From positions 62,001 to 126,000 of the forward strand of contig CP000782.1 in the NCBI GenBank assembly GCA_000017645.1: 64,000 bases of DNA, read 5' to 3'. The DNA comes from Xanthobacter autotrophicus Py2 (GTDB taxonomy: Bacteria; Pseudomonadota; Alphaproteobacteria; Rhizobiales; Xanthobacteraceae). A program made the position numbers and the translations under genes. Below are positions 4,347 to 20,275 of this stretch, piece by piece; position 1 is the first letter of the stretch; each line of letters opens with the position of its first letter. Under the pieces are notes generated by a model. The model was not told the DNA's origin and did no database searches. It saw only the letters and a list, made by a program, of their open reading frames with translations.

Positions 4347-5165
4347 ATGGGCAAGAAAGAAAAACGTGAGGCTATCGGCCAAGAACTTCACGACCTCCAG
4401 GTGGATTTGGCGCGTCTTCAGAAGCACCTCATCAAATCCGGCAAGAAGGTTCTCGTGATATTCGAAGGACGGGACGCCTCCGGCAAGGATGGAACGATAA
4501 AACGAATCGTTGAGCATCTCAGCCCGCGCGAGACGCGCGTGGTCGCGCTGGGCAAGCCGTCCGATCGCGACCAGAAGTCCTGGTATTTCCAACGTTGGGT
4601 GCCGCACCTCCCGGCAGGCGGGGAAATCGTGCTGTTCAACCGCAGTTGGTACAACCGCGCTGGAGTCGAGCGGGTGATGGGGTTCTGCAGCAACGAGGAA
4701 TATGACGAGTTCCTCATGACGGCTCCGCTGTTCGAACAACTGCTCGCCCATTGCGGCGTCACTATTCTCAAATACTATTTGGATATCTCGCGAACTGAAC
4801 AAAAACGCCGGCTAAGAGATCGACGGGACGATCCGCTCAAGCAGTGGAAGCTGAGTCCCATCGACGACACAGCGATAAAGCACTGGGACGATTATAGCGC
4901 AGCGCGGAACGAGATGCTGGCTCGCACGCACACGCCATTTGCGCCCTGGACAGTCGTGCGCGCGGCCGCCCTCCAGCGTGATCACTTTATCCGCATCGCC
5001 ATTCACAACCCCGCGGACCAACTTGGGCTCGCCATGCTCCCGCGTTGCGCGACCACCATTTTTCGCGGCCGCTATAAATTAGTGCGCAAAGATCTGGGAC
5101 GACACTTCGAGCCTCTTCAACGTCGCTCTCCTCAAGTGCCAATGTTGCTATTGCAGATACCGTAA
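4347..5165 (+). CDS. PPK2-family polyphosphate kinase with replaced C-terminus
   Basis: PPK2 enzymes transfer phosphate between polyphosphate and nucleotides in the cytosol. The Walker A region (FEGRDASGKDG, about residues 39-49), the NRSWYNRAGVERVMGF block and the RRLRDR lid are all present, so the catalytic core to about residue 205 (TPFAPWTVVRA) is intact. After that point the usual C-terminal helix of the family is absent and the last 65 residues are unrelated. The stretch from 4987 to the stop is antisense to the convergent TIR gene. A recombination junction near 4970 is the simplest explanation. Activity may survive, as only the last helix is lost. Confidence 0.8.
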   Translation: MGKKEKREAIGQELHDLQVDLARLQKHLIKSGKKVLVIFEGRDASGKDGTIKRIVEHLSPRETRVVALGKPSDRDQKSWYFQRWVPHLPAGGEIVLFNRSWYNRAGVERVMGFCSNEEYDEFLMTAPLFEQLLAHCGVTILKYYLDISRTEQKRRLRDRRDDPLKQWKLSPIDDTAIKHWDDYSAARNEMLARTHTPFAPWTVVRAAALQRDHFIRIAIHNPADQLGLAMLPRCATTIFRGRYKLVRKDLGRHFEPLQRRSPQVPMLLLQIP

Positions 5166-5712
5166 AGGAAGGAGCCCTTTCGTTCACTGAATAGGACGTA
5201 TACAAACCCGACTCGTTTCTAAAGGCGACAAGGGTCTGGACCAACGCTGCATGTAGCAGACGAACCCGTTCGACCAACGCGTGAATCTTAGTTTGGCGAG
5301 TCGAAATCAAGTGGGGGGGGTGAAAAGTCCCTTTACAGAAGTCGACAAGTCTTCTGAAGGCGTCGTCGGCGCGTCGTCCATTCCAGCAGATCAATTCAAA
5401 GCCTTGACGCTCGGCGTAGGATAGGAATATTGGCGCATTGGTTTTTTCAAGAAATACCTGCACAAGCTTGCCGGCCTGCTGTGCGAAGCGTGCCTCAGCT
5501 TTCACGAACTGGCTATTGACTGATGACGCAGTCCAGCAAGTCAAGACAAGAGCTGCGGAATGCAATTTTTCTTCGATTACTTGCTCCCAAGGGGCTTCGG
5601 CGGGGATATCGCGGTCCCACCAAATGGAGAGCCCTTCTGCGCGAAGCGCTTCAAGCAAAGTTGCCACTCGCGGCTCATCTTCACGGGCGTATGACAGAAA
5701 CATGAAGGACAT
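4987..5712 (-). CDS. TIR-domain protein, possibly 3' truncated
   Basis: A 241-residue protein started at the methionine preceding FMFLSYAREDEP. Residues 1-140 form a bacterial TIR domain: FLSYAREDE in strand A, the IWWDRDI box 2 region, a conserved EEKLHSAALVLTCWT strand and SQFVKAEARFA helix. The C-terminal 100 residues match no family I know, and the final 30 are encoded by DNA shared antisense with the PPK2 gene, so the natural end may be missing. Bacterial TIR proteins are often NADases or effectors of antiphage systems; no partner sensor is adjacent. Base composition is more AT-rich than neighbours, consistent with acquisition. Confidence 0.75.
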   Translation of the reverse strand: MSFMFLSYAREDEPRVATLLEALRAEGLSIWWDRDIPAEAPWEQVIEEKLHSAALVLTCWTASSVNSQFVKAEARFAQQAGKLVQVFLEKTNAPIFLSYAERQGFELICWNGRRADDAFRRLVDFCKGTFHPPHLISTRQTKIHALVERVRLLHAALVQTLVAFRNESGLYTSYSVNERAPSFTVSAIATLALEESDVEEARSVVPDLCALIYSGREKWWSRNAGAWRAQVGPRGCEWRCG

Positions 5713-6036
5713 AAATGTGTCACTGCGCGTTAATTGAAAATACTGAAGAAATGATGAGTTTAATATCGGGATATAGCATGTCAACCCTTAAAAGGTTCGA
5801 GGTGTGTGACCGACGACACGGCCGCAGCGAAGGCCGACCGGTGCAATTCATACCAGCGACCGGTGCCGGCCGTGCAGATCTCCAGGGCTTTTGTTTTTGG
5901 CGTTTAAGCACGATACGAGTAGACCGCGGTCCAATCTAGGTGTCTAAAATGCTTGCTCAGCGCACCTCAGGGTTGAAATTGCAGCGTGATCTTGCGCGGT
6001 CGTGAAGTATTGGGTGCCATTGCGCCTGTTGGTTAT
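5713..6036. other. Intergenic stretch without convincing gene
   Basis: About 320 bp between the TIR start and the IS left end. It must hold the TIR promoter. Short ORFs here lack coding character. An imperfect repeat of CGACCGG/CCGGTC around 5837-5875 could form a hairpin. No other signal is seen. Confidence 0.4.
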
Positions 6037-6097
6037 TGACCTGAGCCCCTAAACCTCCTCGAGATTTAGGTAGAGTCCGTCGACACGGAGACGGGCG

Positions 6098-6366
6098 ATG
6101 CGTGCCTCACGGTTCACCGAGGAACAGATCATTGGGATGCTGAAGGAGCAGGAGGCAGGCGCGAAGACGGCGGACGTCTGCCGCAAGCACGGCATCTCCT
6201 CGGCCACCTTCTACAAGTTCAAGGCCAAGTACGGCGGCATGGACGTTTCCGATGCCCGGCGGCTGAGAAGGCGCTCGAGGATGAGAACGCCCGGCTGAAG
6301 AAGCTGCTTGCCGAGCAGATGCTGGACAACGCCATCCTGAAGGATGTGGCTTCAAAAAAATGGTGA
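6098..6366 (+). pseudogene. IS orfA, frameshifted
   Basis: The first 57 residues (FTEEQIIGMLKEQEAG ... VSDARRL) are a typical orfA helix-turn-helix. At 6264-6271 the sequence reads CTGAGAAGGCG, where homologous elements would read CTGAAGGCG (LKALEDEN). Two extra bases (or one missing) throw the frame. The expected continuation [16 protein letters not shown] resumes in the next frame from 6271 and ends at TGA 6364-6366. The transposase of this copy is therefore probably not made, unless the sequence carries an error here. Confidence 0.8.
6354..6360 (+). other. A7 slippery site for programmed -1 frameshift (orfA/orfB)
   Basis: AAAAAAA lies directly before the orfA TGA, and the orfB ATG begins on its last A (6360). 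This is the canonical arrangement for -1 frameshifting that yields the OrfAB transposase in IS3-family elements. Confidence 0.75.
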
Positions 6367-7199
6367 CGCCCGATGCGAGGCGCAAAGCCGTGGCTCAGGC
6401 CTGTGCGGAGCATGGGGTGAGCCAGCGTCGGGCGTGCAAGGCGCTGGGCGTCGATCGCACCAGCGTGCGCTACCGGAGCGACCGCCCCGACGATGCGAGG
6501 GTGCGAGAAGCCATGAAGGCCGTGGTCGGCGAGCGCCGCAGGTTCGGCTATCGGCGGATCCACGTCATGCTCAGGCGCCAGGGCATCGTCATGAACCACA
6601 AGAAGCTGCGCCGGCTCTACCGGGAGGAGAAGCTCCAGGTGCGCCGGCGCGGGGGCCGCAAGCGGGCGCTCGGCACACGCCGGCCCATGGGGGTGCCGGA
6701 TCGGATCAACGTCCGCTGGAGCCTCGACTTCGTGTCGGATGCCTTCACGGATGGACGGCGCTTCCGGGTGCTGGCCGTGGTCGACGACTTCAGTCGGGAA
6801 TGCCTGGCGCTGGTGGCCGACACCTCGCTGTCCGGCCTTCGGGTGACGCGCGAGCTCGATGCGCTCATGGCCATCCGGGGCAGGCCCTCGACCATCGTCT
6901 CGGACAACGGCACCGAACTGACCTCGGTGGCGGTTCTCAAGTGGTGCCAGCACACCGGCATCGAATGGCACTATGTCGCTCCGGGCAAGCCCATGCAGAA
7001 CGGCTTCGTGGAGAGCTTCAATGGCCGGTTCCGGGACGAGTGTCTGAATGAGACCCTGTTCTCGACCCTGGCGCAGGCCCGCGCCACAATCAGCTTATGG
7101 AAGGAGGACTATAACCTCAACCGGCCTCACTCGGCGCTGGGCCACCGAACCCCAGCCGAGTTTGCCGCAACACTCACACTGGAAACCGTGGCCGCCTGA
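6360..7199 (+). CDS. IS3-family transposase OrfB (DDE integrase core)
   Basis: A 279-residue protein with the HTH_21-like N-terminus ([15 protein letters not shown]) and an rve integrase core. The catalytic triad is readable: D in [11 protein letters not shown] in [10 protein letters not shown] in [12 protein letters not shown]. The C-terminus [19 protein letters not shown] is diagnostic of the family. OrfB is intact and acts as part of an OrfAB fusion made by frameshifting. Because orfA is broken, this copy is likely defective on its own but could be mobilised by an intact copy. Confidence 0.9.
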
Positions 7200-7256
7200 G
7201 GCCACAAATCAACCTGCGGACTCTGCTCCTGAACTCGACGAGAAATGGGGCTCACG

Positions 7257-8827
7257 TCACCCGGCGCGCCATTCCAGAATAGTCGTTTGCACGCTGCTGG
7301 AAAGCCTTGAAAAGCAAGGTCGCTCGAGATCGAACGCGCGTCCGCCGAGGCCCGCGAGCGTGCGCCGGGCTGGCGCCACCTGGGCGGTGGGGCTTCTGGC
7401 GAAGCCCTTGGTGCGCGGCACGAACGGCGTGGCGCTGTCGCACACCTCCAGGAAGCGGCTCACCTGATCGGCGAGCCTTTGGTTGCGGTGGGGAGCCTCA
7501 CACAGAGCGAGCGCGCGGTGGTCGAGCCCTCATCCTTGAAATCGTCCCAGGCCTTGCCGAAGTCGATCTCGGATGTCGGCGGATCGAGCGGGATGGCCGT
7601 GGCGCGGTATTCGGCCTCGCTGGGCAGGCGCCCGCGCTTCATGGCATCGTTGCGGAACTCGGACACCTCGCGCAACGCACGCCGAATGCTGCGGTTCTCA
7701 TCGATGGATGACAGCAGCCACGCGGGCAGAGGCGCCAACACATCTGGAGCCGGCTTGAGATGCGCCCGCTCGCGCAGCAAGGCGAGGCGCCTGGCCACCA
7801 CGGCCCGGCGGAATTGAGGCGGCCCTACATCCAGCTTGGCGGGAAAGGGGGCTTCGCGTTCGATGCGGTCGAGATCGCTCGCGGTCAGGGTCAAGCGACC
7901 ACGGCGTCCGCCGATGATGGCCTCATACTCGTTGGCGAGGACCGCGATCACGACGGCGCAGTTGGGAATTTCCTCCACGAGACGCACCGCTTGGGTGAGG
8001 GCGTGCACGAACAGGCCCTCGTCTCCGAACCGCACGGTGTTTTCCACCTGATCGAAGCCCAGAACGAGGCAGCCGCGCACCAATTGGGCCAGCCCGCCCA
8101 GGTTGCGGATGACCTCTATGCGCTGCCTGGGGGTCGTGATCGGAACGAGGAGGAACTCGGCCATATGCTTGTCCACCTGGCCGTGTCGCAGATAGTTGAG
8201 CGCCGATGCGTCCCCGTGTCCGGCCAGCAGGACGGCGCCTATGAAGCCGCCGGGCAGATCGTCGGTTAGCCAGGCCCGAGCCTCCCTGGCGATGCGCCGC
8301 CCAATTCTGAAGGCGAGCTCGAACTCGGTGTCGCTGTCGAGATCGTCGACGGCGCGCCGGAACTCCTGCTGGCGGGGCTGGTCCACGAAATCGAGGAGCT
8401 TGTCCGCCAGCCGCCGCAAAGGGCTGTGGCCGTCCTCGTCGCCGAAATGGCGAGCCGACAGCTCGCGGATCACCGCATCGAGCAGCCACACGTCATAGCT
8501 GGCGATGGTCACCGGCGCCGTGAGCTGCAGGATGACGGGAAACACGCTGTGCTGGCGGTGCTCCGTGAAAGGGATCACGCCACGCAGCATGGTGGAGAGG
8601 ACGTGGCTCTTGCCCGAGCCCGCCTCCCCCTTGACCAGGGCGATGCGCGCGCCGGGGCTCGGATTGAGCTTCAGAGCGTGGATGATGGCATCGAAGATGG
8701 CTTCGCGTGCCACCTGCTGATGCTGGGGCACGTCCATCTCCGCCAGCTCGCGCGCATTGCGGAAGTTGGCGATGGTGGTGAACAGGTCATCGTTGCGCGC
8801 ATCGAGAAAGGCGCTGACGAGCGGCAT
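7257..8827 (-). pseudogene. P-loop ATPase of an unassigned three-gene module, frameshifted and cut by the IS
   Basis: The 5' part codes for about 440 residues with a Walker A motif KGEAGSGKSH near residue 66 and hydrophobic strand CLVLGFDQVENT as a likely Walker B region (D-Q in place of D-E). Around 7495 the frame breaks: CTGTGTGAGG appears to carry an extra TG. Coding continues in another frame (RLADQVSRFLEVCDSATPF) until TGA 7257-7259, which is supplied by the IS terminal repeat itself. So the natural C-terminus is gone. It follows the gene ending at 8833 by 5 bp, as one operon. Role unknown; the layout resembles antiphage or antiplasmid ATPases, which is inference. Confidence 0.7.
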
Positions 8828-8832
8828 GGCGC

Positions 8833-9915
8833 CTACCCGCCAGCCGTGACGACAAAGTGCGCGCGATCTCGGCCCCAGGCGGTCTCGCTACGCATGCGCA
8901 GAATGGCGTCCATGTGCTCGGGCATGTCGAGGCGCGCGAGCTGGAGCCTGTTGGCGGACGCGGCGGCCACGAGGCGCTCCTTGAAGCTCTGGAGGGCGCC
9001 GGCATCGGGAAATTCCCAACCATAGGCGTCGTAGACCTGCGCGATGGAAACATGGCCCAGGAACGGTGGGGTGGTGAGCTTGGCTGCCACCTCGAGCACG
9101 CGGGCGGCAAATTCCGTCGCCCCGGCACCGGCCCCGAGCGGAGAGGACGGGTGCATGGCCTTGTCCGGCGCCGAGTGCGATGGTGCTGCGTCCACCGCGC
9201 GCGAGGCCGTTTCATCGGGCATCGCCGCAGGCCGGGCATTGCGAAGCGAGCGGACGACCACCGCCCTGCGCACGGCGTCCAGGTTTCCCGCCTTGAGCCC
9301 CACCGCGGCGCAGGCCAGCGCGCCCATGGCCTCGGGCAGGCTCTTGGCGGGCGCGCCCGCAAGGCCGGCGAGGATCACGCGCTCGGTCACCCCCGGCTTC
9401 TCGATCTGCGGAAACGGGCCCTTGCCGACGAACTCTCCGATGCCCGCCATCAGCGTGCGCCAGACCAGCTCCGAGCGCACGGCCGACGGGGCGCCGATCA
9501 GCTCCTTCGGCAGCCCGAAGCCAACGGCGACGATGGCGCCCATGCAGACCTCGGGATGGGACAGGCGCACGTCGCCCGCCTGCGGATCGAGCCCGAGGCA
9601 GGCCGGAAGAAGCTGCCGGACCAGCCCATCCATGCCTCGCCTCGCGCCGGCATCGGCGCCGAGCAGCGCCCGGGCGGCCGCGTGCCCGCTTGGGGTGAGG
9701 GTGATGGTCTTCTCGGCGGAGGCCAGCCCCTGGGTGATGAGGGCGGATTGGGCGTCTGCGCTCTGGTCCGCATCGAGGAAGGGGGCCAGGCGCCGGGCCA
9801 GCATCTTCTCGGACAAGCCGGATTTCTGCCCCGCGAGGCAAGCGAGCATGAGATCGGCCGATGAAAGGGGGGCGAAGCGCGCCGGGTCCGGACGGGGAAA
9901 TACGACGAGCGACAT
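8833..9915 (-). CDS. Unrecognised protein with winged-helix-like C-terminus, middle gene of three-gene module
   Basis: A 360-residue, mostly helical protein. The ATG overlaps the upstream stop (TGATG), so it is translationally coupled. The N-terminal 70 residues (LMLACLAGQKSGLSEKML, ITLTPSGHAAAR) look like a DNA-binding-like small domain. A Ser/Pro/Ala-rich linker at about 245-270 precedes a C-terminal domain (VSIAQVYDAYGWEFPDAG, ARLDMPEHMDAILRM) that looks like a winged helix ending in a conserved HFVV strand. No catalytic motif is seen. I cannot name the family. Likely a DNA-contacting or scaffold partner of the ATPase encoded 5 bp downstream. Confidence 0.65.
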   Translation of the reverse strand: MSLVVFPRPDPARFAPLSSADLMLACLAGQKSGLSEKMLARRLAPFLDADQSADAQSALITQGLASAEKTITLTPSGHAAARALLGADAGARRGMDGLVRQLLPACLGLDPQAGDVRLSHPEVCMGAIVAVGFGLPKELIGAPSAVRSELVWRTLMAGIGEFVGKGPFPQIEKPGVTERVILAGLAGAPAKSLPEAMGALACAAVGLKAGNLDAVRRAVVVRSLRNARPAAMPDETASRAVDAAPSHSAPDKAMHPSSPLGAGAGATEFAARVLEVAAKLTTPPFLGHVSIAQVYDAYGWEFPDAGALQSFKERLVAAASANRLQLARLDMPEHMDAILRMRSETAWGRDRAHFVVTAGG

Positions 9916-10762
9916 CAAGCACCTGTTCTCATGATTCGACGCGAGAGCATGTCCGCGATATCCCGCCATACCGCGACGGGATCATGAATGCCGGAGTGGT
10001 TGGCGAAGCATTTGATGCGGTAGCCCGCGACTTCCAGGTCGCGCTGCTCGTCCTCGTCCAAGCGCTTGCGGCGCGCCGTCTCGTGCTCGCGATCGTCAAT
10101 CTCGATCGTCGGCGGCGCCTGATCGCGGAAGAGGTCGATCTCGTGGCTGCGCCTTGCGTGGACCGGCACGCGCGCATTGGGGGAGACGCGACCTTGGGCA
10201 TGCGTGCCGGCCCCGAGCATGTGGCAGAGCGACCCTCGCGGGGCCCGCGCAGGAACGGCACCTTGCGGTCCATGGAGACGGACTGGATCACCTGCCGCTC
10301 CACCGCGTCCACCGGCGCTAGCCCTTGCAGCGCCATGCCCACGAGGGGCTGGGGAAGGCTGGGGTCGAGAAGGCTTTTCACCATGTCGCCGATGCCGAAG
10401 GTGAGGACGACGCCGACGCCGGGATGGGCGCGGACGAGGGCCTCGGCCGCGGGCAGCGCCTCGCGCACCTCACCCGGCAGCCGGAGCAGCGGGCCGGAGC
10501 CTTGCGCGACATGGTTGGTGTGGGCTGGAAGGTGCATCCTGTAGGCGGCGAGGGCGGCCTTCGGCTCAAGGTCCGGCGCCGTGAAGACGACGCGTCGATG
10601 CGCGCGCGCCCAATGGCCGAGCCAGGCGCGCGCGTCCAGCGCGGTGCGGGCGGTGATGATGGTGATCAGCGGGAAGCGGCCGGCGCGCGGACGCCCATAG
10701 GCCTCCAGGATCTGGTCCGGCATCTGGTCCGGAGCATCCATCAATGTGGCAAGTGCAGCCAT
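9915..10762 (-). pseudogene. Protein with C-terminal DUF559-like (PD-(D/E)XK) nuclease domain, frameshifted
   Basis: First gene of the leftward module. About 170 residues of uncharacterised helical domain (LITIITARTALDARAWLGHW ... GLAPVDAVERQVIQSVSMDRK) are in one frame. At about 10235-10245 the frame slips, and the next frame continues LCHMLGAGTHAQGRVSPN and then a compact nuclease-like domain: HEIDLFRDQAPPTIEIDDREH ... DEDEQRDLEVAGYRIKCF. The E-I-D and E-I-D-D-R strands fit the DUF559/Vsr-like PD-(D/E)XK pattern. One missing base or two extra bases explain the break. A sequencing error cannot be excluded. The partner genes downstream are tightly packed, suggesting that a functional three-gene operon once existed. 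Confidence 0.65.
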
Positions 10763-10819: not shown

Positions 10820-11113
10820 TCAACGATCCGTCAAGCGCGGTGGAGAGGCCGTTCTGTCGAGCCAGGTGGCGCACGAGGCCGTGACTTGCCGCTCGATCTT
10901 GGGGTCGGAGCGGACCGTCCGTGCAATCCTCGGCTGGCCCCGCCCGTCCTCGAACCCACTGAGCTCCACGATGGCGCCGGGAGCACCGTCGCCCGTCGCC
11001 TCAAGGTCGGGAAACCGGATGTGGTGGGTGCGTCCGTCCACACCGTCGACCACGGCATAGGTGGCGCCCTTCAGCTCATCGTCCAGGCCTCGATCGACGA
11101 GGCGGCCGCTCAT
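10820..11113 (-). pseudogene. Relaxase C-terminal fragment (DUF3363-like)
   Basis: About 97 residues starting at GRLVDRGLDDELKG, then YAVVDGVDGRTHHIRF, DGAPGAIVELSGFED and ATWLDRT. This is the conserved C-terminal region of large plasmid relaxases of the DUF3363 type. The catalytic N-terminal half is absent; upstream of 11113 the frame gives no relaxase-like sequence. It marks a deleted mobilisation gene between the ATPase module and the alkene island. Confidence 0.7.
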
Positions 11114-11721
11114 AGGAGCGTCCAACCTCTCGCGCGCATGTCTATCCGGGAATCGTTGTCGTCTCAGGCCTTTGCCGGAGATCGACGCGTGCCCGTCGGG
11201 CCTGCGCGATCTGCCGGCGGTCGGGCGCGCGGGCAAATCGATGGCGGCCTCTAGGCGGGCACGTGAGCACATGAACGACCATCAAAGGATAGGAAAGGAC
11301 AAGTATAGGGTTGTCATGTCTGGCTATCTGTGATGAAGATGTCGCCGTTGGCAGCGCGCGAACAGCCGGTGCCACGACAAAAAGAAGACGGGAGGGAGGG
11401 CAATCGGGGTGGCTCAGGCGAGGACAGTGCGCGCCGGACCGGTCGGGCGATCCGCCGCCTCATGGCGGGGGCACGCCATGCGCTCCGGCCCGCTCACGGG
11501 AACGGCCCCGCCGATCGAACCGGAGGGCGTCGCCGCGGCGGCGTCACGGTCGAGGTGTGGGTGTTGCCCCTTGCTCAATGTCCGTCAGATCGCCCTCGCC
11601 CCAAGCGAAAGCTGCTTTCGTATTGCACGACGGCTCAATTGAGCGGCGCGGCGATCGGATCGCGCGCGCTGTCTTGTGAGATCACGTTGGGCGCACCTTG
11701 CCGCTCATCGCAATAAGAGCC
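11114..11721. other. Gene-poor stretch upstream of alkene monooxygenase operon
   Basis: About 600 bp without a convincing gene. ORFs on both strands have low-complexity Arg/Pro-rich translations typical of shadows in GC-rich DNA. The left part may be decayed relaxase DNA. The right part must contain the xamo promoter. No good sigma-54 site was found: TTGGGCGCACCTTGCC near 11688 has a GG-N9-GC spacing, one base short. Confidence 0.45.
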
Positions 11722-11765: not shown

Positions 11766-13259
11766 ATGGCGCTCTTGAATCGGGACGATTGGTACGACAT
11801 CGCGCGCGATGTCGACTGGACGCTCAGCTATGTCGACCGCGCGGTCGCCTTTCCCGAGGAGTGGAAAGGCGAAAAGGACATTTGCGGCACGGCCTGGGAC
11901 GATTGGGACGAGCCCTTCCGGGTCTCCTTCCGCGAATATGTGATGGTCCAGCGCGACAAGGAAGCGAGCGTCGGCGCCATCCGCGAGGCCATGGTCCGCG
12001 CCAAGGCCTATGAGAAGCTCGACGACGGCCACAAGGCCACCTCGCACCTGCACATGGGCACCATCACCATGGTGGAGCACATGGCGGTCACCATGCAGAG
12101 CCGGTTCGTGCGCTTCGCGCCGTCCGCCCGCTGGCGCAGCCTCGGGGCGTTCGGCATGCTGGACGAGACCCGCCACACCCAGCTCGACCTGCGCTTCAGC
12201 CACGATCTGCTCAACGATTCCCCGAGCTTCGACTGGAGCCAGCGGGCGTTCCACACCGACGAATGGGCGGTTCTCGCCACCCGCAACCTGTTCGACGACA
12301 TCATGCTCAACGCCGACTGCGTGGAGGCGGCGCTCGCCACCAGCCTGACGCTGGAGCACGGCTTCACCAACATCCAGTTCGTGGCGCTCGCCTCCGACGC
12401 CATGGAAGCCGGCGACGTGAACTTCTCCAACCTCTTGTCGAGCATCCAGACCGACGAGGCGCGGCACGCCCAGTTGGGCTTTCCCACCCTCGACGTGATG
12501 ATGAAGCACGACCCCAAGCGCGCCCAGCAGATCCTGGACGTCGCCTTCTGGCGCTCCTACCGCATCTTCCAGGCGGTGACCGGCGTCTCCATGGACTACT
12601 ACACGCCGGTCGCCAAGCGGCAGATGTCGTTCAAGGAGTTCATGCTGGAGTGGATCGTCAAGCATCATGAGCGCATCCTGCGCGACTACGGCCTCCAGAA
12701 GCCCTGGTACTGGGACACGTTCGAGAAGACCCTCGATCACGGCCACCACGCGCTGCACATCGGCACCTGGTTCTGGCGCCCGACCCTGTTCTGGGATCCC
12801 AATGGCGGCGTCTCGCGCGAGGAGCGGCGCTGGCTGAACCAGAAGTATCCGAACTGGGAAGAGAGCTGGGGCGTCCTGTGGGACGAGATCATCTCCAACA
12901 TCAATGCGGGCAACATTGAAAAGACCTTGCCCGAGACGCTGCCGATGCTGTGCAACGTCACCAACCTGCCCATCGGCTCGCACTGGGACCGCTTCCACCT
13001 GAAGCCCGAGCAGCTCGTCTACAAGGGGCGGCTCTACACCTTCGACAGCGACGTCTCCAAGTGGATCTTCGAGCTCGATCCGGAGCGCTATGCCGGCCAC
13101 ACCAACGTGGTCGACCGCTTCATCGGCGGGCAGATCCAGCCCATGACCATCGAGGGCGTGCTCAACTGGATGGGCCTGACGCCCGAAGTCATGGGCAAGG
13201 ACGTGTTCAACTACCGTTGGGCCGGCGATTACGCCGAGAACCGGATCGCCGCCGAGTAA
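11766..13259 (+). CDS. xamoA: Alkene monooxygenase oxygenase alpha subunit
   Basis: The catalytic diiron subunit that epoxidises propylene and other short alkenes with O2 and NADH-derived electrons. The 497-residue length is that of Xanthobacter XamoA. All six iron ligands are found at the positions known from toluene-4-monooxygenase: E104 (MVEHMA), E134 and H137 (DETRH), E197 (LEHGF), E231 and H234 (DEARH). AGGGAGGA precedes the ATG. It is the first gene of a six-gene operon with tight spacing; subunits gamma, ferredoxin, coupling protein, beta and reductase follow in the order typical of four-component alkene/aromatic monooxygenases. Confidence 0.96.
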   Translation: MALLNRDDWYDIARDVDWTLSYVDRAVAFPEEWKGEKDICGTAWDDWDEPFRVSFREYVMVQRDKEASVGAIREAMVRAKAYEKLDDGHKATSHLHMGTITMVEHMAVTMQSRFVRFAPSARWRSLGAFGMLDETRHTQLDLRFSHDLLNDSPSFDWSQRAFHTDEWAVLATRNLFDDIMLNADCVEAALATSLTLEHGFTNIQFVALASDAMEAGDVNFSNLLSSIQTDEARHAQLGFPTLDVMMKHDPKRAQQILDVAFWRSYRIFQAVTGVSMDYYTPVAKRQMSFKEFMLEWIVKHHERILRDYGLQKPWYWDTFEKTLDHGHHALHIGTWFWRPTLFWDPNGGVSREERRWLNQKYPNWEESWGVLWDEIISNINAGNIEKTLPETLPMLCNVTNLPIGSHWDRFHLKPEQLVYKGRLYTFDSDVSKWIFELDPERYAGHTNVVDRFIGGQIQPMTIEGVLNWMGLTPEVMGKDVFNYRWAGDYAENRIAAE

Positions 13260-13295
13260 ACGGCGACAACAACAAGAGCATTCTGGAGGAAACCC

Positions 13296-13562
13296 ATGTC
13301 TTTGTTCCCCATCGTGGGCCGCTTCGTGGGGGATTTCGTCCCCCACCTGGTGGCGGTGGACACCTCTGACACCATCGATCAGATCGCCGAGAAGGTGGCG
13401 GTCCACACGGTCGGGCGGCGCTTGCCGCCCGATCCCACCGCCACCGGCTATGAGGTGCTCCTCGACGGCGAGACCCTGGACGGGGGCGCCACCCTGGAGG
13501 CCATCATGACCAAGCGCGAGATGCTGCCCCTGCAGTGGTTCGACGTGAGGTTCAAGAAGTGA
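13296..13562 (+). CDS. xamoB: Alkene monooxygenase gamma subunit
   Basis: An 88-residue protein of the TmoB/TouB-like family, the small gamma subunit of the (alpha-beta-gamma)2 oxygenase. Conserved features include the start SLFPIVGRFVGDFVPHLV, the ubiquitin-like fold pattern and the C-terminal MLPLQWFDVRF. TGGAGG lies 8 bp before the ATG. Its last codon overlaps the GTG of the ferredoxin gene, so translation is coupled. Confidence 0.93.
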   Translation: MSLFPIVGRFVGDFVPHLVAVDTSDTIDQIAEKVAVHTVGRRLPPDPTATGYEVLLDGETLDGGATLEAIMTKREMLPLQWFDVRFKK

Positions 13563-13927
13563 ACCTTCACGCCCCCAACGCCGAGCAAGACGACATCGAG
13601 TATGTCGATGTCTGCGCGGTCGATGATCTCTGGGACGGTGAGATGGATGTCTTCGACGTGGGCGAGCACGAGGTCCTGCTCGTCAAGCACGAAGGCCGGT
13701 TCCATGCCTATGACGGCATCTGCCCCCATCAGTCCGTCTCCCTGGTCGAGGGCCACCTGACCGAGGACGGGGTCCTGATCTGCAAGGCGCATGAATGGCA
13801 ATTCAGCGTCGAGGGCGGTCAGGGGATCAATCCCGCCAACGTCTGTCTCCAGTCGTTCCCCCTCAAGGTCGAGGGGGGACGTGTCCTGATCGGCACCGAA
13901 CCGCTGCCCAAAGAGGGAGAGGCCTGA
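13559..13927 (+). CDS. xamoC: Rieske-type ferredoxin of alkene monooxygenase
   Basis: A 122-residue soluble ferredoxin that carries electrons from the reductase to the diiron oxygenase. The Rieske [2Fe-2S] ligands are C55-P-H57 and C75-K-A-H78. I choose the GTG at 13559, which overlaps the xamoB stop (GTGA) and yields the length of the known XamoC. A longer ATG start inside xamoB is possible but would add an unrelated N-terminus. Confidence 0.94.
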   Translation: MNLHAPNAEQDDIEYVDVCAVDDLWDGEMDVFDVGEHEVLLVKHEGRFHAYDGICPHQSVSLVEGHLTEDGVLICKAHEWQFSVEGGQGINPANVCLQSFPLKVEGGRVLIGTEPLPKEGEA

Positions 13928-13929
13928 AA

Positions 13930-14235
13930 ATGAGCAACGCCACCGTCGACGACATGGACGAGAACCTTGTCGGTCCAGTCATTCGCGCCGGAGATCTTGC
14001 CGATGCGGTCATCGATGCCGTCATCGCCGACAATCCCGGCAAGGAAGTGCATGTCATCGAGCGCGGTGACTATGTGCGCATCCACACCGACCGCGACTGC
14101 CGGCTGACCCGCGCCTCCATCGAGCAGGCCCTGGGGCGCAGCTTCGTGCTCGCCGCCATCGAGGCGGAGATGTCCTCCTTCAAGGGGCGCATGTCCTCCT
14201 CGGACAGCGAAATGCGCTGGTACTACAAGTCCTAA
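13930..14235 (+). CDS. xamoD: Alkene monooxygenase coupling/effector protein
   Basis: A 101-residue cofactor-free MmoB/DmpM-family protein that binds the oxygenase and tunes electron transfer and product formation. Family features: [17 protein letters not shown] at the N-terminus, [15 protein letters not shown] in the middle and the C-terminal EMRWYYKS. The ATG follows the ferredoxin stop after 2 bp with GGGAGAGGCC ahead. Confidence 0.93.
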
Positions 14236-14266
14236 GCCGCAAGGCCATAAGATCTGGGAGGAACAC

Positions 14267-15292
14267 GTGACACAGCAGCGCCCCACCCGCACGCGCGAGC
14301 GCAAGAAGACCTGGACGGCTTTCGGCAATCTCGGACGCAAGCCGACCGACTACGAGGTCGTCACCCACAACATGAACCACACCATGCGCGGCACGCCCCT
14401 GGAGCTGTCGCCGACGGTGCACGCCAATGTGTGGCTCAAGAAGAACCGCGACGAGATCGCGCTCAAGGTCGACAGCTGGGATCTGTTCCGCGATCCCGAC
14501 CGCACCACCTACGACACCTACGTCAAGATGCAGGACGACCAGGAGACCTATGTCGACAACCTGCTCCTGTCCTACACCGGCGAGGGCCGCTACGACGAGG
14601 AGCTTTCCTCGCGCAGCCTCGACCTCCTGTCCGCGGGGCTGACGCCGACCCGCTATCTGGGCCATGGGCTGCAGATGCTCGCGGCCTATATCCAGCAGCT
14701 CGCCCCGTCGGCCTATGTGGGCAATTGCGCGGTGTTCCAGACCTCCGACGCGCTGCGCCGCGTGCAGCGCGTCGCCTACCGCACCCGCCAGCTCGCCGAC
14801 GCCCATCCGGCCCGCGGCTTCGGCTCCGGCGACCGGGCGGTGTGGGAGAAGTCCCCGGACTGGCAGCCCATCCGCAAGGCCATCGAGGAGCTGCTCGTCA
14901 CCTTCGAATGGGACAAGGCGCTCGCCGGCACCAATTTCGTGGTGAAGCCGATCCTCGACGAGCTGTTCCTCAACCACCTGGCGCGCCTGCTCCACGTGGA
15001 GGGCGACGAGCTCGACAGCCTCGTGCTGCGGAACCTTCACGGCGACGCCCAGCGCCACGCCCGCTGGACGGCCGCGCTCGGCCGCTTCGCCGTCGAGCAG
15101 AACGTGAACAACCGCACGGTCCTGCGCGACGCCATCGCCGGCTGGCACGAGACCGGCGAGGCGGTCCTCGCCGCGGGCGCCGGGATGCTTGCGAGCCGCG
15201 CCCCCAGCGCGGATGCGGCCAAGATCGCCGACGAGGTCCGCGCCACGCTCGCGCAGCTGCACGCCAATGCGGGCCTCGGGCACGATGCCTGA
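14267..15292 (+). CDS. xamoE: Alkene monooxygenase beta subunit
   Basis: A 341-residue protein homologous to the beta (TmoE-type) subunit of diiron monooxygenases. It shares the ferritin-like helical fold of the alpha subunit but lacks iron ligands. Recognisable segments are [39 protein letters not shown] and [12 protein letters not shown] start at 14267 with CTGGGAGGA upstream. The stop overlaps the ATG of the reductase gene. Confidence 0.94.
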
Positions 15293-16331
15293 GGCGCGTG
15301 ACGCGGCCGCCACGGCCGAGCGTCCGGGGCAGGACGGGGCATTTCACGTGCGGCTGAACGACGGCAGGAGCTTTTCCTGTCGCTCGGACCAGACCGTGCT
15401 CCACGCCGCCCTCGCGGCGGGGATCGACATGCCCTACGAATGCGCCAGCGGCTCGTGCGGCTCCTGCCGATGCCGTCTGAGCCACGGGAGCGTCTCGCTC
15501 CTGTGGCCGGAGGCCCCGGGCCTCAGCGCGCGCGACCGGCAGAAGGGCGATCGCATCCTCGCCTGCCAGTCCACGCCTTCGTCCGATCTCGAGATCAACG
15601 TGCGGGCCGGCGATGCGCTCCTCGAGCCACCGCCCCGGCGCCACGCCGCCCGCGTCACCGTGAAGGAGACGCTGTGCGCCTCGGTGATCCGGCTCGTCCT
15701 GAATGTCGGCGGGCCGATCCATTTCCTGCCCGGGCAGTTCTTCATCCTCGATCTGCCGGGCGCGGGCCGGCGCGCCTATTCGGTGGCCAATCTTGAGAAT
15801 GCCGCCGGAGGGATCGAGCTCCTGATCAAGCGCAAGATCGGCGGCGCCGGCACGGCCGCGCTGTTCGACCAGTGCGCGCCGGGCATGGGCCTCGTCATCG
15901 AGGGGCCCTACGGGCGGGCCTATCTGCGCGCGGACAGCGCGCGCGGCATCGTCGCGGTGGCGGGGGGGTCGGGCCTTGCGCCCATGCTCTCCATCCTGCG
16001 CGGCGCGCTCGCCCGAGGATTTGGCGGGCCCATGGACCTCTATTTCGGCGTCAACACCGCCGAGGAGCTGTTCTGCGTGCCCGAGCTTTCCGCCCTTCAG
16101 GCCGCGGGCGCGCGGGTGCATCTGGCTCTGCGGGACGGCGGGCCGGGGCCGGCCGGGCTCCATCGGCAGGCTGGCCTGATCGGCGACGCGCTCGTCGCCG
16201 GCGAGCCCGACCTGAAGGCGAAGGACCTCTATGTGGCCGGGCCCGCGCCCATGACCGACGACATCCTCGCCCGCACGGTGCGGCAGGAGGCCATTCCCGC
16301 GGACCGGGTGTTTTTCGACCGTTTCGTGTGA
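15285..16331 (+). CDS. xamoF: Alkene monooxygenase NADH reductase (2Fe-2S/FAD)
   Basis: A 348-residue electron-transfer flavoprotein that feeds the Rieske ferredoxin. The N-terminal plant-type [2Fe-2S] domain has C53-x4-C58-x2-C61 and C94. The FAD domain has the RxYS motif (RRAYSVAN), and the NAD domain has [12 protein letters not shown] and the terminal FFDRFV. The ATG overlaps the beta-subunit stop. A longer upstream in-frame ORF exists inside xamoE but would add unrelated sequence. Confidence 0.94.
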
Positions 16332-18645: not shown

Positions 18646-19144
18646 TGCGTCCGTCGTCCTCGGAGCGAGAATAGGTTTGACTAACTTCGGACATGTCCCA
18701 TCGGCTCCTTGGGCATGGCCAATCCTCCCCTTTGGTTTCTTATCGAGCTGTCCGCCCTCTTAGCACCCTTCGACCCATAACGGAAATGTGCGACAGTCTG
18801 GTGCGGTACAGATATGTATGAATAAGATTGTAATCAAGTCTCGGTGAGCGGCGGGACGCGGCGGAGTGTCCCACGCCCGGGTTCGGCGCCCGGCCGTCCG
18901 GATTCGCCGTTCGGCGCCGGAAAACCCGCAAAAGCTCGAGAATCTCATGCTGGCCCGTGCGAGGCGCTTGACAGCGTCCATGGTCGGTGACTAAGAATGA
19001 TCAACTATAGATAATAATGGCGACTTCCGAGCAGGAATGGTGCTGGAATGTCGTCATCATTGAGAAGGCCGACGACGCATCGTGGCCAGGCAGATTGGGT
19101 CTGCCGCGGCACGAGACAGTCAGGCGGCATCAGGGAGGATGGGA
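18646..19144. other. Divergent promoter region between the MEDS regulator and xecA
   Basis: About 500 bp with no convincing gene. It contains GGACATGTCC (18689-18698), TTGACA at 18969-18974 with a weak -10 (TAAGAA) about 18 bp on, and an AT-rich patch (CTATAGATAATAATGG, about 19003-19020). The promoters of both flanking transcripts must lie here. Confidence 0.5.
18689..18698. promoter_or_regulatory. Perfect 10-bp palindrome GGACATGTCC, candidate operator
   Basis: GGACATGTCC lies 44 bp upstream of the MEDS regulator start, next to TTTGACTAACTT. An autoregulatory operator would fit, but the only evidence is symmetry and location. Confidence 0.35.
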
Positions 19145-20275
19145 ATGCTGATCCGAGGGGAAGACGTCACGATTCCGACCAGTATGGTCGGCAACTATCC
19201 CAATCCGCGGTGGTGGGACGCCCAGTTCGCCCGCACCTGGACGGGTGATCAGGAGCCGCCGGACGCGCTGATCCAGGAATCCCTCGAGGATGCGGTGGCT
19301 GCCATCGCCCGCGATCAGGAGCGCGCCGGCCTCGACATCATCAGCGACGGCCGCGTGCACGGCGACAATTACGCCGAACAGGCCCTTTATTATTACTACC
19401 GGCGCCTCGGCTACGACCTCAAGGGCGGCTATCTCGGCTTTCCGATCTACAGCCGGCTTCACGCGGGCACCCTCACCGGCGAGGTCCGGCGCCACGGCGC
19501 GATCATGGTCGAGCAGGCCAAGGCGCTGAAGAAGGCCACTGGCAAGCCCACCAAGGTGCAGTATACGGGCGTCCAGGCGCTCACCCAGGCGACCAACGAC
19601 CTGCACTACAAGTCGAGCCGCGATCGCGCCATGGCCATCGCCAAGGCCATCAACGAGGACATCCGCGAGGTGGACGCGCTCGGCGTCGACTTCATTCAGA
19701 TCGACGAGTTCACCTGGCCCTATTTCTTCGAGGACTGGGCCATCGAAGCCTTCAACGCGGCGGTGGACGGCGTGAAGAACGCCAAGATCATCGCCCATGT
19801 GTGCTGGGGCAACTGGGGCGGCACGCCCGCTTACTATCCCGACGAGACGGCGGCCAGCGGCGAGATCTTCGATCTCACCAAGCGCAAGGCGGAAGCCACC
19901 AAGGCCACCGCCACCGGCTCCATCGTGCCGAAGGCCTACGAGGCCCGGCTCGACGTGCTCAACCTGGAAAGCTGCGGGCGCCGCTCCGATGATCTCAGCG
20001 GCCTTCACGTGATGAAGAACCATCCCCTGCCGGACAATGTCTCGTTCTGGGCGGGCGTCATCGACGTGAAGAGCACCATCACGGAGACGGCCGACGAGGT
20101 GGCAAACCGCATTCGCCGGCTGCTGGAGATCGTCCCGGCGGACCGCCTCGGCGTGACCACCGACTGCGGCCTCATTCTGCTCCAGCGCTATATCGCCCAG
20201 GACAAGCTGCACGCCCTCGTCGAGGGCACCAAGATTGTCCGAGCAGAGCTCGCCAAGGCCAAGCAGGCGGCCTGA
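19145..20275 (+). CDS. xecA: Epoxyalkane:coenzyme M transferase
   Basis: Zinc enzyme that opens epoxypropane with coenzyme M, giving 2-hydroxypropyl-CoM, the first step of epoxide metabolism. It belongs to the MetE-like alkyltransferase superfamily. The zinc ligands are readable as H218-V-C220 and C341 (TTDCGLIL). ATG 19145 is preceded by AGGGAGG at 6 bp; ATG 19139 is too close to that site. Length is 376 residues, as expected for the family. It starts the long xec/xcb operon. Confidence 0.95.
   Translation: MLIRGEDVTIPTSMVGNYPNPRWWDAQFARTWTGDQEPPDALIQESLEDAVAAIARDQERAGLDIISDGRVHGDNYAEQALYYYYRRLGYDLKGGYLGFPIYSRLHAGTLTGEVRRHGAIMVEQAKALKKATGKPTKVQYTGVQALTQATNDLHYKSSRDRAMAIAKAINEDIREVDALGVDFIQIDEFTWPYFFEDWAIEAFNAAVDGVKNAKIIAHVCWGNWGGTPAYYPDETAASGEIFDLTKRKAEATKATATGSIVPKAYEARLDVLNLESCGRRSDDLSGLHVMKNHPLPDNVSFWAGVIDVKSTITETADEVANRIRRLLEIVPADRLGVTTDCGLILLQRYIAQDKLHALVEGTKIVRAELAKAKQAA

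Follow-up and report, generated by a model that had tools for sequence, protein, structure and literature searches.

What was the original function of three adjacent, damaged genes in Xanthobacter autotrophicus Py2? They are located at positions 7257 to 10762 of a stretch of 64,000 nucleotides, here called the window, which corresponds to bases 62001-126000 of contig 2 (316,164 bases) in a genome of two contigs. The replicon which holds the window we take to be the megaplasmid of this strain. An initial annotation had proposed a decaying, defence-type operon of a nuclease, a winged-helix protein and an ATPase. We consider it probable that the locus is the dead copy of a module of three genes which translocated DNA, was armed with a nuclease and belonged to the Orc/CDC6-type 'HerA/FtsK capture' systems. 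Under this term, which denotes an exchange of HerA, Rakesh, Aravind, and Krishnan (2024; PMC10853773) put forward such systems from sequence, as far as the main text of their paper tells.

The three genes and their decay

Re-reading of the sequence confirmed three minus-strand genes in the order and spacing first annotated, with a 1-bp overlap of genes 1 and 2 (TGATG at 9915), a 5-bp gap between genes 2 and 3 (8832-8828), and nuclease, winged-helix and ATPase genes united in one operon. The genes are real because the identities to whole operons exclude chance. Their limits were set by alignment to homologues which are also the closest relatives, P0037 (gene 1), P0002 (gene 2) and P0082 (gene 3).

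The copy is indeed damaged. The N-terminal part of gene 1 (10232..10762), by fold and alignment a probable degenerate AAA+-fold domain, is 72% identical to residues 1-183 of P0037 in frame -1. The C-terminal part (9915..10235, aligned over 10235-9918), a PD-(D/E)XK nuclease of the DUF559/Vsr-like kind, is a separate match of 67% identity to residues 183-288 in frame -3, i.e., the nuclease half is out of frame. Gene 2 (8833..9915) is unbroken; it encodes 360 aa with a winged helix, a helical middle and a winged-helix-like unit, and its homology to P0002 (74% identity) spans 9915-8842 without interruption. Gene 3 starts with an Orc/Cdc6/BrxD-like AAA+ domain (7505..8827), 84% identical to residues 1-439 of P0082 (1041 aa), which carries the Walker A motif GEAGSGKSH and the acidic motif DQVE. 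Following a deletion and a change of frame, a fragment of the middle domain with one stop (7266..7544) matches residues 486-586 at 65% identity; the HerA/FtsK half is lost. The last gene 3 homology ends directly beside an insertion sequence (6037..7259, no strand assigned), of the IS3 type as judged by eye, whose borders are respected by partial copies of 85-91% identity. A search of the genome did not recover the remainder of gene 3: of the 672-residue C-terminal part of the X. agilis protein only residues 2-99 and 148-218 match.

Intact relatives and the limits of the unit

As the initial annotation had anticipated, whole copies with linked genes exist elsewhere. P0037, P0002 and P0082 all stem from contigs of 5,727 bases and very probably constitute one operon. 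Shared contig sizes point to further intact operons in metagenomes: identical source-contig sizes occur eight times for genes 1 and 2, ten times for genes 1 and 3, and nine times for genes 2 and 3 (of 48, 31 and 47 rows), compared to 0.11, 0.06 and 0.05 in a jittered null. An intact operon is present in a metagenome-assembled genome (MAG) of the Azospirillaceae (L038), in which the three genes follow one another without interruption; taking the earliest possible start of each, they overlap by 4 bases.

The limits of the unit emerge in X. agilis (L035). There, the three genes lie between a sugar-nucleotidyltransferase-like and a thioredoxin-like gene (named by eye). In another genome of the genus, G407, both flanking genes are adjacent, with 186 bases between the aligned flanks vs. 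5,225 in X. agilis. Gain or loss in X. agilis concerned exactly these three genes together, as seen in this one pair of genomes; elsewhere in the genus the flanking genes were not seen side by side. The cassette contains neither a methylase nor an integrase, and a search for terminal repeats at its ends returned none that convinced. One in-frame TGA (12114-12116) interrupts gene 3 of X. agilis; a full-length relative is P0080 from Xanthobacter sp. V2C-8 (1,014 aa, 92% identity).

Gene 3, a protein with two motors

The initial annotation of gene 3 as a P-loop ATPase holds for the ATPase as such, yet it covered no more than the N-terminal part of a protein with two motors and missed the HerA/FtsK one. 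Intact relatives of about 1,000 aa consist of an Orc/Cdc6/BrxD-like AAA+ domain, a conserved middle domain (profile M) and, behind it, a HerA/FtsK DNA-motor domain. With the window reading frame, known-family searches gave only sub-threshold AAA-type matches. Relatives match AAA_16/AAA_22, some below cut-off, and one from a family termed f2 matches NCBIfam BrxD with E 7.7e-8, which is below the cut-off of that model. The HerA/FtsK domain, absent from the window copy, was identified in relatives through HerA_C/DUF87 and 7es4, DptH (E 4.6e-25); it is closest to DndH/DptH. The search with window gene 3 matched no plasmid and no viral contig. Homologues of gene 3 with only 607-660 aa occur in a Myxococcales MAG (L036:10130-12815) and as metagenome proteins P0123-P0126; when scanned, P0123 and P0124 had no HerA match, and Myxococcota P0117 (999 aa) has one.

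We built profiles from three parts of an alignment of 36 ATPases and searched 52 collected proteins with them. Fourteen proteins of the f2 type, twelve from family f2 itself plus L063 and L064 from two further families, scored 82-117 bits with the AAA+ profile, 49-69 with the middle profile and only 16-27 with HerA. The HerA profile gave 329 bits for one DndH protein and about 100 for two others, and none of the DndH proteins included matched the AAA+ or middle-domain profile. Vice versa, an f2-type HerA profile scored 41-43 bits with three cellular HerA-like proteins vs. 18 bits or less with HerAs of the three-gene form. A HerA tree of 51 rows splits f2-type from three-gene HerAs with 100/99 support, to be read with caution in view of its long branches. 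Judged from these profiles and this tree, the f2-type forms with two genes, ATPase and gene 2 partner, keep the AAA+ domain and the partner but carry a HerA of another clade.

On p64a of Sinorhizobium fredii GR64 (L097:4059-8013) we encountered a protein of 1,169 aa with a HerA domain that joins DndH on a long branch. Its gene lies immediately upstream of vsr, with an AAA_5 gene nearby, perhaps another set of a motor and a Vsr nuclease.

Genes 1 and 2

Gene 1 is a Vsr-like DUF559 nuclease joined to a degenerate AAA+-fold domain, the latter assignment being probable. The DUF559 nuclease named at the outset is borne out by Pfam matches in two relatives (E 2e-13 and 5e-9) and has none in the in-frame window reading frame, for which known-family searches returned one chance-level NCBIfam match (E 0.26). 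In the alignment the N-terminal domain lacks a P-loop motif conserved across the family, and a profile comparison of gene 1 and gene 3 found no relation. Neither gene 1 nor gene 2 had a Foldseek match at E <= 0.001. Active-site motifs are conserved in the module proteins. When the class was scanned with gene 1, 53 of 385 genomes matched; every listed match except the window's own starts at position 171 or later. Because these matches are confined to the common DUF559 part, they are uninformative with respect to the operon.

The winged-helix-like C-terminus of gene 2 reported earlier is present; a second, N-terminal winged helix had been overlooked. The window reading frame matched nothing in known-family searches, and comparing the gene 2 profile with the PDB by sequence gave no convincing relative (best E 0.17). 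A likeness to MukF/kleisin was discarded, the structure rows being weak (prob 0.18-0.38). The class-wide scan hit one of 385 genomes, the window's own, with at most five candidates scored per genome in the matches shown; within the genus gene 2 is present in 2 of 14 genomes. Gene 2 relatives matched no plasmid or phage record; for one relative this includes PLSDB at E 1e-5, where the window's own plasmid may be missing.

A single viral contig with a gene 2-like winged helix was found (L045:7958-14617, IMGVR_UViG_3300037692_000177). Its phage protein of 2,219 aa has LPD38 and virion RNA polymerase similarity, and over a stretch of 96 residues it shares 57% identity with the C-terminal winged helix of one gene 2 relative. 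Rare HTH domains in such polyvalent phage proteins are mentioned in PMC5512222.

The nuclease-free two-gene form

Among 397 genomes of the order, 31 were matched by window gene 3, its own included. We inspected 28 loci at 27 distinct places (L035 and L068 are identical), 19 of them fetched by the ATPase alone (L049-L067) and nine via gene 2. A gene 2 homologue stands beside the ATPase in all 19 loci fetched by the ATPase alone; the gene 1 nuclease is found at two of the 27 places, X. agilis and L038. The two-gene form is present in 8/8 genomes and 4/4 genera of the Rhodomicrobium family and in 102/103 genomes and 25/25 genera of the second family, f2. Two f2 matches, in G421 and G482, are weak and perhaps stem from other HerA-type proteins; without them the counts are 100/103 genomes and 24/25 genera; the sole f2 genome lacking a match is 54% complete. 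Neighbours recur: of 14 f2 loci, 12 have a CAP-domain lipoprotein nearby, ten a transglycosylase, seven a D-Ala-D-Ala carboxypeptidase and five a flippase-like protein. In the Rhodomicrobium family L041, L042, L049 and L050 share one context, which differs at L037, L039, L040 and L065. Recurrent neighbours and near-universal presence therefore identify the pair as conserved genes of the chromosome, f2 being the clearest case.

Such fixed, nuclease-free forms were unexpected; the machine may have begun as, or become, ordinary cell equipment. Nature has performed an experiment: in a whole family this AAA+/winged-helix pair is fixed in the chromosomes without a nuclease and with another HerA motor. 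With this natural variant the origin of the motors, cell machinery or defence, becomes testable.

Surroundings of the locus

The relaxase remnant, the TIR gene and the insertion sequence of the initial annotation are all in place. The remnant (10820-11272), just upstream of the module, is DUF3363 / RlxS-like over about 60 residues only (DUF3363, E 4e-15). The TIR-domain gene (4987-5784), left of the insertion sequence, matches TIR_2 with E 5e-18 and has SAVED5 TIR as best PADLOC match (E 2e-9). Both were dropped as module parts, as they are absent from the X. agilis unit. A reading frame at 4347-5165 resembles polyphosphate kinase 2 by eye and its C-terminus looks out of frame; it is perhaps another decaying gene. 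Positions 11766-16331 presumably are a multicomponent monooxygenase operon and 19082-20275 an epoxyalkane-metabolism gene, families assigned by eye, which suggests a catabolic plasmid.

Proposed function and alternatives

The analysis establishes the domains, the operon linkage, the unit borders at one locus, the conserved active-site motifs and the HerA exchange; the assembly of the module, its order of action and its role in defence we infer. The gene 3 protein would assemble into a ring, which its Orc/Cdc6-like AAA+ domain would load on DNA and through which the HerA/FtsK domain would pump double-stranded DNA. Gene 2, via its two winged helices, could supply recognition of DNA or of a partner. 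Gene 1 might use its degenerate AAA+-like domain to dock on the AAA+ ring and would cut the pumped DNA with its Vsr-like nuclease. Because the unit has no modification enzyme, targets would be chosen by the state of the DNA, i.e., foreign DNA that enters, transfers or replicates, and not by a methyl mark. Restriction of foreign DNA seems the likeliest job of the nuclease-armed form. This is a minimal three-gene version without modification enzyme, bounded by an empty site, and whole operons exist for testing.

Several points weigh against this proposal. All components listed for the Orc/CDC6 type were recognised in the module, except an inactive restriction endonuclease (REase). Genes 2 and 3, when compared with one DptG and one DptF, showed no match beyond the shared P-loop. 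Equal contig size is indirect evidence of a common contig. No defence neighbourhood was found: nine neighbouring reading frames at the X. agilis and L038 loci had no PADLOC match. The nuclease-free relatives are core chromosomal genes in two families, hence the ancestral job may not have been defence.

The last point leads to a competing explanation, that of a cellular machine for DNA processing or chromosome segregation to which some lineages added a nuclease for repair. The near-universal two-gene forms and their recurrent f2 neighbours speak in its favour. However, the nuclease-bearing form is patchy in the genus, sits on a plasmid here and was gained or lost as a cassette in X. agilis, and in the Rhodomicrobium family only half of the eight contexts agree; we regard this explanation as rather unlikely. 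A mobility module, in which motor and nuclease aid plasmid or conjugative transfer or integration, could appeal to the general use of HerA/FtsK-type motors in conjugation and to the relaxase remnant. It is quite improbable in view of an X. agilis cassette of three genes only, without convincing terminal repeats, of two-gene forms fixed in chromosomes and of one gene 2 relative without a match in PLSDB at E 1e-5, where the window's own plasmid may be missing. Least probable, and by our estimate hardly credible, is a compact DndFGH restriction module: HerA is nearest to DndH and the module, three genes with a multi-winged-helix one in the middle, recalls F-G-H, but there is no DndF/DndG homology to the one set tested, DndH profiles match gene 3 relatives only with the last ~300-400 of ~1,400-1,700 positions, and no DndH protein in the set gave an AAA+ or middle-domain match.

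A wider idea we hold to be possible rather than likely. The AAA+/HerA motor and its two-winged-helix partner may be an unrecognised core DNA machine of two Hyphomicrobiales families, vertically kept, with HerA exchanged between lineages. In the mobile, nuclease-armed versions this machine would have become a weapon for defence; alternatively, the core forms would be weapons that were tamed. The C-terminal winged helix of the partner occurs within a giant virion-type protein of at least one phage, where it might act as a decoy.

Comparison with known systems

The earlier statement that no named system with this gene order was known is partly correct. At the limits used, genes 1 and 2 of the window and of P0032/P0006 remained without a PADLOC match, gene 3 matched through its motor domains only, and weak nuclease-domain matches were obtained for gene 1 of L038, which is more distant; the class as such, however, is already in print as 'HerA/FtsK capture'. 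Among the papers listed by literature searches that covered no preprints and few subscription articles, none dealt with this gene set besides PMC10853773 and PMC12839542.

With DndFGH/DptFGH the module shares, beyond its HerA, the logic of nuclease, motor and multi-winged-helix protein. It differs in that the nuclease is a separate gene; DndF and DndG homologues, looked for with one DptF and one DptG sequence, and the large, multi-domain DndH N-terminus were not found, and this identity was dropped. The mad8 profile of MADS matches the HerA part of gene 3, whereas other MADS genes are missing from the X. agilis unit; P0080, P0117 and P0082 match only mad8 among the MADS models and none of mad1-mad7, and one f2 fragment has a weak mad3 match (E 6e-4). 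BREX and BREX-related capture (BRC) resemble the module in the BrxD-like AAA+ domain, BrxD being classed as ORC-Cdc6, and in a BRC HerA with DndH as top structural match (PMC12839542). In contrast, the X. agilis unit is limited to three genes, without PglZ, BrxC/PglY, BrxA/B, PglX or any methylase, and the nine neighbouring reading frames at the X. agilis and L038 loci gave no PADLOC match; BREX membership was rejected.

The Orc/CDC6-type capture systems are most similar. The main text of PMC10853773 lists an Orc/CDC6 ATPase, an inactive and an active REase, HerA/FtsK and winged helix-turn-helix (wHTH) domains, in some cases a protein with 2-4 wHTH; the inactive REase is inserted between the AAA+ core and the C-terminal wHTH. 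Here we find an Orc/Cdc6-like AAA+ with HerA/FtsK, an active REase-fold nuclease, a small multi-winged-helix protein and HerA domains from different clades. The word DUF559 does not occur in that main text; the supplement may list the same variant. Three features set the module apart from the description there: a DUF559/Vsr-like nuclease carried by a probable degenerate AAA+-fold domain, the union of AAA+ and HerA in a single protein, and nuclease-free forms that belong to the chromosomal core genes. The locus reads as a broken member of the published class, in a variant which combines a DUF559/Vsr-like nuclease with a fused AAA+-HerA protein.
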